Below are positions 61,269 to 64,000 of a stretch of DNA of 64,000 bases, piece by piece. Source of the DNA: Nitrospirales bacterium (lineage in GTDB: Bacteria; Nitrospirota; Nitrospiria; Nitrospirales; UBA8639). The stretch lies in the NCBI GenBank assembly GCA_029261295.1, contig JAJDBP010000006.1, positions 62,001-126,000 of the forward strand, written 5' to 3'. Numbering within the stretch: position 1 is the stretch's first letter; every line of letters starts with the position of its first letter. A program made the position numbers and the translations under genes. The notes beneath the pieces are model-generated. The model was not told where the DNA came from. It made no database searches and saw only the letters and a program-made list of their open reading frames with translations.

Positions 61269-61366
61269 AATTTGTCAAAATCGCGCGAGACAATAGATGA
61301 GCGGCAATGTCTGACTATTCTCTCATCTTGACTGCATTTCAATCCTGAATTAAGCTCATTCTACGT

Positions 61367-61440
61367 TGGGGGATCGTCTAATGGTAGGACGTCAGATTCT
61401 GGTTCTGATTGTGGGGGTTCAACTCCTCCTCCCCCAGCCA
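61367..61440 (+). tRNA. tRNA-Gln (anticodon CTG)
   Basis: A 74-nt cloverleaf with encoded CCA: acceptor TGGGGGA pairs with TCCCCCA, then G73 and CCA (61438-61440). The D-arm stem is GTCT/GGAC, the anticodon stem TCAGA/TCTGA with loop TTCTGGT (anticodon CTG, 61399-61401), and the T-arm GGGGG-TTCAACT-CCTCC. The anticodon reads CAG glutamine codons. Its 3' half, from the first anticodon base to CCA, is duplicated at 62220-62261. Confidence 0.93.
61399..61440 (+). repeat. Left attachment-type direct repeat (tRNA-Gln 3' half)
   Basis: 42 bp identical to 62220-62261. It starts exactly at the first anticodon base and ends at the encoded CCA. It would be attL of the cassette. Confidence 0.85.
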
Positions 61441-61499
61441 AAAATTCGCCTGCCGGCTTACTGTTCTTTTGAATCTAATTGGAAAAAAGAATTCTAGGG

Positions 61500-61790
61500 A
61501 TGAAACGGTCAAAAGTTCTTGAAGTTCTTGCTCGGGTTAAGCCGGATTTGATGTCACGGTATGGAGTTATCCGATTAAGTCTGTTCGGTTCTACTTCGCG
61601 TGATGAAGCCCAGCTGGATAGTGATGTGGATATCCTGGTGTCCTTTGATGGACCAGCAACATCTCAGAAGTATTTTGGCGTCCAATTTCATCTTGAAGAT
61701 GCTTTGGGGTGTTCAGTTGATCTTGTGACCGAAAAGGCTCTGCGCCCTGAATTGCGTCAATTCATTGAGCAGGAGGCTGTGAGTGTCTGA
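61500..61790 (+). CDS. mntA: MntA-type nucleotidyltransferase antitoxin
   Basis: About 96 residues from the ATG at 61500 (a TTG at 61479 is in frame). It is a minimal nucleotidyltransferase with the full GSX10DXD signature in LFGSTSRDEAQLDSDVDILV, followed by a conserved acidic residue in CSVDLVTEKALRPEL. In characterised pairs MntA neutralises the HepT ribonuclease by adding AMP units to its tyrosine. The gene overlaps hepT by 8 bp, as expected of a TA operon. It lies inside the tRNA-bounded cassette. Confidence 0.92.
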   Translation: MKRSKVLEVLARVKPDLMSRYGVIRLSLFGSTSRDEAQLDSDVDILVSFDGPATSQKYFGVQFHLEDALGCSVDLVTEKALRPELRQFIEQEAVSV

Positions 61791-62127
61791 ACGGGAATGG
61801 CGGTTTTATGTTGAGGACATGATTAGCTTTGTTGAAAAAGTAATTGTATACACGGAAGGGTTTGATCAAAGCGAGTTTTTGAAAAGTGGTCTGAATTATG
61901 ATGCCACGGTGCGGAATTTAGAGTTGATTGGGGAAGCTGCAACCCATATTCCTGAGAGCATTCGAACTTCCAGTGAAGAAATCCCCTGGCGTCAGTTGAT
62001 TGCTACTCGCAATCGCTTGATTCATGGGTATTTGGGAATTGATAATGATACCCTCTGGAGTATCATTAATGACGATATTCCTATTTTATTGTCTGAATTA
62101 CGGATCCTAAAAGACCAATTTGCGTAA
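61783..62127 (+). CDS. hepT: HepT-like HEPN-domain ribonuclease toxin (DUF86)
   Basis: A 114-residue all-helical HEPN protein with the RX4HXY active-site motif intact (RNRLIHGY). The family pattern NYDATVRNLELIGEAATHIPE precedes it. HepT toxins cleave RNA, and the Tyr of the motif is the site modified by MntA. The GTG at 61783 has an excellent AGGAGG-type site within mntA, giving translational coupling. The complete active site argues for a working module. Confidence 0.93.
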   Translation: MSEREWRFYVEDMISFVEKVIVYTEGFDQSEFLKSGLNYDATVRNLELIGEAATHIPESIRTSSEEIPWRQLIATRNRLIHGYLGIDNDTLWSIINDDIPILLSELRILKDQFA

Positions 62128-62219
62128 ATCTCATTTTCTACGCAACATGAGCTAGACTTCTTATAGAAGGCTTCGATCCCGAGTTCTTAGTAATAGGGAA
62201 ACAGACGGAAATTAATTTC

Positions 62220-62261
62220 CTGGTTCTGATTGTGGGGGTTCAACTCCTCCTCCCCCAGCCA
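62220..62261 (+). repeat. Right attachment-type direct repeat (tRNA-Gln 3' half copy)
   Basis: Exact copy of 61399-61440. The sequence before it does not resemble a tRNA 5' half, so it is a fragment, not a second tRNA. It would be attR of the cassette. Confidence 0.85.
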
Positions 62262-62270
62262 TGTATTCGC

Positions 62271-62761
62271 ATTTCACCTTTCTTCCAGCAAGCATCCAGG
62301 AAGTACAGGCAGGGTTCCCATGGTGGGCACATTCATTCAGTGCCTGTTCTTCTGGTTCTGTCGCCATTAGCGAAATGGTGAACACTCCTCTAAGTTTTCA
62401 TCCAATCTTAGATTAGAATACTCCAGTAAAATTGGAAATTTCTGTCTACAAAATATGAAGGTCAAACCCTTCAATACCTTCAAAACCCCATTTGCAATAG
62501 AACCATTTTTCCTCCTTGTTTTAACTGCTCCATGTTCCCTTTAATCTCCAAATTTTGTATGGTAAAGGTCGGATTACTTGAAAGCCCCACTTCGTAGGTT
62601 CATGCAATGGACCAAGAGGATAGCGGCGTATGAAGGGAAAACGGTCAGGCCGCGGCTCATGGATGTGAGACGAGTTCGATGAGTCAAAATGGAAAAGAAG
62701 TGTATTTTGCTGAAGAATAGAAGGACATAGCCTTCACCGGTCTTAGGAAAAATTAGGGCGA
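62271..62761. other. Non-coding stretch after the cassette
   Basis: About 490 bp between the right repeat and the protease gene. I see no credible gene, tRNA or terminator. An 11-nt match to the tRNA anticodon region (TTCTGGTTCTG, near 62350) is probably chance. It may be older island debris. Confidence 0.4.
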
Positions 62762-64000
62762 ATGAACAAATTTGGATCTACAATGAGATTATTAGGGTAC
62801 TCTTGCCTTTCTCGCAATTTTTTCTCTCCTCCCCTTTTTGGAATGGTAGGCTTCTCTCTAGCACTCCTGGGTATATTCAATGGGATAGAGGTCCAGGCCA
62901 ATGATGTGGAGTCCTTGCGTGCGGGAGTTGTCCGCATCGTAGCCAAAAGTGATGACGGTTCAAAGGTGGGATCTGGAATCATCGTAAAGCAAACCGAAAA
63001 TCGGGCGATCATTTTAACTGCCTCCCATGTGATCGAAGGAGCGAAAAAAATCCAAGTGGCATTTTATAGGGACCCTCTCACTTCCCTTCCAGGAAACGTT
63101 TATAAAATGGAAGGAGACGATCCTAAAGGATTGGGGATCCTAAAGGTGGAGGGGAAATTACCTCCAGGGATTACTTCCTTGCAAATAAATCCCGCTGAAC
63201 ATGCCAAGGCGGGTGAAAGTGTCATGATGATTGGGCATCCGAGGACTGCTGGAGTACCCTGGATGATTGCCCAAGGCACCATTGGAGGATTAGACGGACG
63301 ACTGCTTTTGTTTTCTGGTCCAATTGAGGAAGGAAGTTCTGGGGGACCTTTGATCGTGAACAATGAAGTCATTGGGGTGATTGTCGAAAAGTTTGATGTT
63401 CTTGGCCGTGCTGTTCCTGCTGGAACCATTCGGACGACTTTAGAATCTTGGCTAATACACCCCAGTCCAATATCGCCCAAAAGGGTTGAAGCATCTGATC
63501 CTCAAACCAACATCCTTGAAGGGTTTACCTGTGAAACGTTTAGGGAAAAAGATACCCTGGGAGAAATACGAAAGAGGGGATTAAAGAAGGCCTTACATCA
63601 AGCCATTCTTTCATCTAAAGCGTATTGGGAAGCGACCTCCCAAGTCTCAACCATGCGATTGAAAGAGGATTTCCTTGAGGGGATTTCTTCAAATCTGCTA
63701 CGAAATATCCAACTGATCAACTTTGAGACAAAACCTGGAGAACAGTTTTGCTTTACCTCTTCTGCTGAATTTAAACTTGCCTCGTTAAAAGAGTACATTC
63801 AAGGCAGGGGTAGTACACGAATGATTGCGGAGGAAACGAAAAATTCCCCCTTAACCGTGAACCCTGATTTTGACCTATTAGTTTGGACTAATAAGGAGAA
63901 TAATAGATTTTTTGAAGATGATTCGTTAGAGATTTACGTGCAAACCGAGATAAACGCCTATCTTAAAGTGGATTACTTTACTGCTGAGGGGACCGTCACG
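62762..64000 (+). CDS. Trypsin-like serine protease with DUF4384-like C-terminal region (3' end outside window)
   Basis: 413 codons, open to the window edge. A signal peptide or anchor (hydrophobic about residues 25-42) precedes a trypsin-like domain with the His motif ILTASHVIEGAKK and the Ser motif EEGSSGGPLIV. The position usually holding the catalytic Asp (DxALL-type) reads DDPKGLGILKV, with Gly in place of Asp, although nearby Asp residues might substitute. After a helical linker, DLLVWTNKENNRFFEDDSLEIYV and NAYLKVDYF fit a DUF4384 domain. AGGG lies just before the ATG at 62762; an ATG at 62783 is an alternative start. It may act in envelope proteolysis or as a pseudoprotease. Confidence 0.85.
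   Translation, partial: MNKFGSTMRLLGYSCLSRNFFSPPLFGMVGFSLALLGIFNGIEVQANDVESLRAGVVRIVAKSDDGSKVGSGIIVKQTENRAIILTASHVIEGAKKIQVAFYRDPLTSLPGNVYKMEGDDPKGLGILKVEGKLPPGITSLQINPAEHAKAGESVMMIGHPRTAGVPWMIAQGTIGGLDGRLLLFSGPIEEGSSGGPLIVNNEVIGVIVEKFDVLGRAVPAGTIRTTLESWLIHPSPISPKRVEASDPQTNILEGFTCETFREKDTLGEIRKRGLKKALHQAILSSKAYWEATSQVSTMRLKEDFLEGISSNLLRNIQLINFETKPGEQFCFTSSAEFKLASLKEYIQGRGSTRMIAEETKNSPLTVNPDFDLLVWTNKENNRFFEDDSLEIYVQTEINAYLKVDYFTAEGTVT

Follow-up and report, generated by a model that had tools for sequence, protein, structure and literature searches.

An integrase-less MntA/HepT toxin-antitoxin unit bounded by tRNA-Gln 3′ halves in Nitrospirales, apparently long resident rather than freshly mobile

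Elements that have attachment sites, carry no mobility genes and accrete in tandem are known as CIMEs (PMC5704250), and tRNA islands with anticodon-centred crossovers and tandem arrays have also been described (PMC4383910). The tRNA-Gln island PYG1 of Pyrococcus yayanosii, with repeats of 43-44 bp and a toxin-antitoxin (TA) pair, excises even with its own integrase gene disrupted (PMC5126054, PMC9897764), which is a precedent for action in trans. As for the TA pair considered here, MntA of Shewanella was found to silence HepT by adenylylation (PMC7641770). Here we describe a mntA/hepT pair between two tRNA-Gln 3′ halves, in a 64-kb stretch of DNA (C34:62001-126000, referred to as the window) from a Nitrospirales genome of 4.06 Mb (G000). 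The TA cassette is a real integrase-less, tRNA-anchored unit, apparently long resident in its family rather than freshly mobile.

The sole tRNA gene in the window, an intact tRNA-Gln(CTG) with encoded CCA, was detected by ARAGORN at 61367-61440 (+ strand) downstream of gltX, and the order gltX-tRNA-Gln is kept in 12/12 genus genomes with a full gltX match. A 42-bp direct repeat, identical at 42/42 positions, extends from the first anticodon base to the encoded CCA. Copy 1 (61399-61440, +), which is attL-like, is the 3′ half of the tRNA itself, while copy 2 (62220-62261, +), which is attR-like, is a lone tRNA-Gln 3′ half; such an exact identity at a spacing of 821 bp is far beyond chance. The preliminary description of this DNA had reported both this repeat, starting at the first anticodon base, and the presence of nothing but MntA and HepT between its copies. 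Both points were confirmed, as scanning of both strands, with Pfam annotation, detected no ORFs of at least 60 aa between the repeats other than mntA and hepT.

The first gene, mntA (61500-61790, +, ATG start), encodes a minimal nucleotidyltransferase antitoxin of 96 aa (PF01909, 1.3e-14) that corresponds to PADLOC PDC-S09, has 1wot as its nearest PDB sequence (E 1.5e-14) and shows 76–86% identity to its homologues. The second, hepT (61783-62127, +, GTG start), encodes a HEPN ribonuclease toxin of 114 aa (PF01934, 2e-25), for which no PDB match was obtained with either the single sequence or a profile. The GSX10DXD motif is complete in MntA (GS-X10-DVD), as is RX4HXY in HepT (RNRLIHGY), where R76, H81 and Y83 are invariant in 11/11 aligned sequences. 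The two motifs and the 8-bp overlap of the genes are thus as the preliminary description had given them, and a GSX10DXD MNT gene adjoining an RX4HXY HEPN gene is the arrangement by which HEPN/MNT genes are defined. Both signature motifs, the antitoxin-toxin order and the overlapping genes are shared with HepT/MntA, the HEPN/MNT type VII system (PMC7641770), whereas the setting between tRNA halves and the short MntA are not. Judging from the motifs, MntA would add AMP to Tyr83 of HepT, which would leave the RNase inactive.

The TA pair lies 59 bp downstream of tRNA-Gln and in the same direction. A promoter-like site, TTGACT (61328-61333) and TAAGCT (61351-61356) with a 17-nt spacer, was read from the + strand upstream of tRNA-Gln, within a stretch that is conserved in aligned relatives, and no + strand promoter-like or terminator-like site was found between tRNA-Gln and mntA. 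On this sequence evidence, the tRNA-Gln promoter probably also drives the TA pair, which suggests that captured genes may be served by the promoter of the tRNA. It is known that tRNA is digested by HEPN toxins, and HepT relatives are said (Songailiene 2020) to cut tRNA 3′ ends; the link between such a target and the tRNA-bounded setting is possibly a coincidence, and we do not count it as evidence.

By definition, the TA unit is closest to a CIME. It keeps both attL and attR in the form of the exact 42-bp repeats, the same core that is duplicated by an integrase island in a relative (see below), only mntA and hepT lie between them with no integration or transfer genes, and, as in CIMEs (PMC5704250), the elements lie in tandem at one tRNA and accrete at the end where the target gene is intact. 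Unlike CIMEs, it is 821 bp long with one TA pair, has no known parental ICE/IME with the same TA, and occurs in a TA-only form common to several genera. With the tRNA islands mapped by Islander (PMC4383910), the unit shares the anticodon-centred crossover, the regenerated tRNA and the displaced 3′ fragment; however, it has no tyrosine integrase of its own, by which an autonomous tRNA island is recognized, and as Islander demands an integrase gene the unit is filtered out by design. Island mapping of this kind overlooks such units. PYG1 resembles it in the tRNA-Gln direct repeat (43-44 bp there, 42 bp here) and in carrying a TA pair, but PYG1 is 21.4 kb long, has its own integrase, and its TA is AbiE rather than HEPN/MNT. 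Additive flexible genomic islands likewise consist of units that differ in size, the smallest having 330 bp with one gene, and that have tRNA-end repeats in front of them, although conserved TA-only units were not reported there (PMC5217437, PMC10872708). An integron gene cassette was considered as well and rejected, as the boundaries are tRNA 3′ halves, not attC sites of an IntI-type recombinase, and there is no integrase in or near the TA unit.

To compare the locus within the genus, 21 genomes were examined. In G011 and G004, an intact tRNA-Gln is followed by no lone half before a conserved AAA-type gene, and these are the single-copy, empty gltX-tRNA-Gln sites that the preliminary description had proposed to look for. 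At the same tRNA, G012 carries a 16.5-kb insertion with a tyrosine integrase (C231:25130; PF00589 and an arm-binding domain), beyond which come first an exact half, then a single-gene element and lastly a diverged half. When G012 was aligned to G011 (97% GltX identity), both sides of the insertion matched and a 44-bp core was found duplicated. Two further tRNA-Gln halves are present in G013. At the level of sequence, comparison with the empty sites demonstrates insertion at tRNA-Gln, and together with the 44-bp duplication by the integrase island it upholds the insertion at the tRNA anticodon loop that had been proposed.

A trypsin-like protease gene is followed, beyond the window, by a third, diverged tRNA-Gln 3′ half (C34:126654-126697, near 64.65 kb if the numbering of the window is continued), which lies 2.4 kb further downstream than copy 2. 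The locus is accordingly an array rather than a single insertion. The protease gene (Pfam Trypsin_2, +, from 62762) lies in an integrase-less neighbour element that occupies 62262-64000, runs beyond the window, and ends in a conserved arm of about 130 bp and the diverged half (C34:126518-126699, or L004:6518-6699). Eight orphan halves have this upstream sequence of about 130 bp in common, with direct CTCCCAGTT-like repeats. A sequence model of the arm and half detected further copies in the genus, some of them on 3′ halves of tRNA-Gln(TTG), tRNA-Gly(GCC) and tRNA-Lys(TTT), as identified by reading the sequence. In G010 (tRNA-Gly and tRNA-Gln(TTG)) and G019 (tRNA-Lys), the intact tRNA directly adjoins an integrase gene, and the other end of the element is formed by the arm with the matching half. 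A family of integrase islands thus has the arm as its far attachment end, and the single-gene elements found at tRNA-Gln, the protease element among them, belong to this family as members without an integrase. No arm-type repeats of the integrase-linked elements were found in the TA cassette, and none of the six PF00589 matches in G000 is at tRNA-Gln; four are at tRNA-Lys, tRNA-Leu and tRNA-Arg, and two are away from any tRNA.

As single genes lie between copies of the repeat of about 190 bp formed by arm and half, an integron-like reading of it was also considered. It was discarded, since the matches number 1-8 per genome, are dispersed, have different tRNA halves as their core and form the far end of integrase islands. 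Within L004:4762-8348, two different genes with trypsin-like domains adjoin across the third half, and one of them, which also has an FGE-sulfatase domain, has a 77% identical copy in G013's own insertion at tRNA-Gln. Downstream of the lone half, at 62285-62312 of the window, we observed direct repeats that are short and follow the pattern AGCAA(G/T)CAYC, as also after tRNA-Gln in G012 and G013; these may be arm-type sites for the integrase at the elements' left ends. In G020, the assembly breaks exactly at tRNA-Gln (end of contig C12 and start of C1, L031 and L030, with about 77 bp in common), as expected if several sequences follow tRNA-Gln in the sample.

The preliminary description had suggested searching for other tRNA-flanked MntA/HepT cassettes, and these were found at tRNA-Gln in three relatives and at tRNA-Val in an unrelated bacterium. 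The TA-only cassette at tRNA-Gln is present in four genomes from three genera of one family, being intact in G000 with HepT or both genes decayed elsewhere, and part of this decay could be assembly error, the genomes being draft MAGs. In G016, gltX and tRNA-Gln are followed by an intact mntA, a broken hepT, a decayed half and the conserved gene, with nothing else. In RBC_NOB5 (G230), mntA lies 66 bp after tRNA-Gln(CTG) and hepT is gone, while in NPIRA04 (G235) an mntA with one in-frame TAG lies 105 bp after tRNA-Gln, an insert bearing DUF4160 interrupts hepT, and further on lies a decayed half. At the interrupted hepT (L133:945-1600), the DUF4160 gene is accompanied by another small gene that seems to resemble DUF2442, as a small mobile pair inserted into a second one. 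The MntA proteins of these cassettes group together (SH-like support 0.82), with 82% identity between G016 and RBC_NOB5 across genera. MntA at tRNA-Gln was found in 2 of the 21 genus genomes, a good MntA match anywhere in 14 of 236 genomes of the order, and no full element carrying the MntA/HepT pair at tRNA-Gln in any of the 21.

In the unrelated case (L148, an uncultured bacterium from an ErkenSummer MAG), the MntA/HepT pair behind tRNA-Val(CAC) is intact and is followed first by a gene for a ParD-like antitoxin and then by an 81-bp repeat derived from the tRNA-Val 3′ end, and no integrase is present in the cassette. Beyond its distal tRNA-Val half, we identified the tail of a second, decayed hepT (L148:5681-5855), which makes a tandem of TA cassettes at this tRNA. 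Among 32 MntA loci, which were not selected for tRNAs save the window itself, a same-strand tRNA lies no more than 300 bp upstream in five cases, where about 0.06 would be expected; the four Nitrospirales copies are not independent of each other, and if the five are taken as two independent origins, the Poisson chance is about 0.002. Caldilineaceae MntA loci with a tRNA-Ser 2.3–2.8 kb upstream have no second tRNA fragment and were rejected as cassettes, and the viral contigs yielded one HepT relative with no nearby tRNA. In Thiohalomonas (L130:3862-4830), a MntA/HepT pair lies between exact 49-bp direct repeats that are not a tRNA.

The age of the cassette was examined by comparing G000 with G016. 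DNA identity is 79.0% for gltX, 81.6% for mntA, 78.2% for hepT and 77.7% for the downstream AAA gene, and identity at 4-fold sites, equally saturated, is 0.45 inside and 0.40 outside the cassette. This equal divergence favours long residence. In the gltX tree, G000 and G016 are not sisters; G000 pairs with G013 (support only 0.85), and G004, with its empty site, joins G016 (weak support, 0.56), which implies either several clean losses or an old transfer between lineages, and with saturated synonymous sites old horizontal exchange looks the same as vertical descent. The MntA grouping roughly follows the hosts, which were compared by LeuA identities, G016 and G004 having no LeuA match. The two halves are identical at 42/42 positions in G000, where the repeat matches the genome's own tRNA variant, at 34/42 in G016 and at 35/42 in NPIRA04; an exact repeat in G000 against decayed ones elsewhere shows recent recombination between the halves, or re-insertion or homogenisation. 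On these sequence comparisons, the cassette seems mainly to have belonged to the family for a long time, with frequent losses, and not to be a recent arrival. The preliminary description had given equal divergence inside and outside in relatives sharing the structure as a mark of an old vertical arrangement; this holds for G016, but most relatives lack the cassette.

That the cassette is instead mobile at present, being moved in trans by the integrases of resident islands and repeatedly entering tRNA 3′ halves, so that the four Nitrospirales copies are separate insertions, is somewhat unlikely in our view. Its patchy spread in genus and order, the non-sister position of G000 and G016, the exact repeat in G000, the close MntA proteins of G016 and RBC_NOB5, and the tRNA-Val cassette, an independent case in which a second hepT has left remains past the distal half, would all fit such movement; yet divergence between G000 and G016 is equal inside and outside, the MntA grouping roughly tracks the hosts, three of the four copies are decayed, and G000 has no integrase at tRNA-Gln. 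The minimal, recombinase-free mobile TA unit of the preliminary description thus stands as far as the lack of a recombinase in the cassette and the TA-only recurrence are concerned, whereas its mobility is not borne out by the G000/G016 divergence.

It had alternatively been proposed that the unit is the core of a larger island which lost its other genes. A complete integrase island at the same tRNA in G012, and the integrase-less single-gene elements of G000, G012 and G013, whose terminal arm is the att arm of integrase-bearing elements, make an integrase-bearing tRNA-Gln origin conceivable, but the repeat is exact, no integrase or arm remnant is left within the 821 bp, and the TA-only layout is common to G016, so any collapse predates the split of G000 and G016. 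We consider this origin improbable, and as a recent event it finds no support. The remaining reading, that tandem tRNA genes decayed and the TA pair lies among them by chance, had been raised by the preliminary description against its own view and is rejected here as very improbable. There are several partial tRNA-Gln copies in tandem, and in G016 the similarity extends about 20 bp beyond the CCA; however, not one of the 11 aligned orphan copies has a 5′ half, each being broken at the anticodon loop, which indicates insertion at the loop and not decay of an array. The occupation of tRNA-Gln by an integrase island in G012, its empty state in other relatives and the recurrence at tRNA-Val are also against this reading.

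The account that we prefer, and hold to be moderately probable as a whole, is that of an old, att-bounded, integrase-less, CIME-like TA unit in an accretion array at the anticodon-loop site of tRNA-Gln(CTG), probably read from the tRNA promoter and kept by addiction. The unit would belong to a tandem array at a site that a family of tyrosine-recombinase islands in the genus uses as a hot spot, where site-specific recombination, perhaps with the recombinase supplied in trans by a resident island, would have brought the cassette in and swapped the tRNA 3′ half. Excision across the repeat would restore an intact tRNA while ending the antitoxin supply, so that the TA pair would penalise loss. Since then, the cassette would mostly have been inherited and often lost or decayed, and the flanking repeat of G000 has recently been renewed or homogenised.

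A tRNA-bounded unit that contains nothing but a TA pair and is found across genera and at a second tRNA offers a clean natural experiment on whether repeat-flanked DNA is kept by addiction alone, and also on how integrase-less units travel. We can only speculate, and rather doubt, that HEPN/MNT pairs form a class of their own, of minimal integrase-less and promoterless elements specialised for tRNA 3′ halves, always read together with the tRNA, moved in trans by the integrases of resident islands and kept by addiction, as a tRNA counterpart of the integron cassette, with at least two unrelated lineages and two tRNAs. Finally, two types of tRNA-Gln(CTG) 3′ half, GAGGGTTCGAATCC and CCCAGGTTCGATCCCTGG, were observed within one genus, and the GAGGGTTCGAATCC type also occurs in NPIRA04, a member of a different genus, as though the 3′ half had been exchanged by elements.
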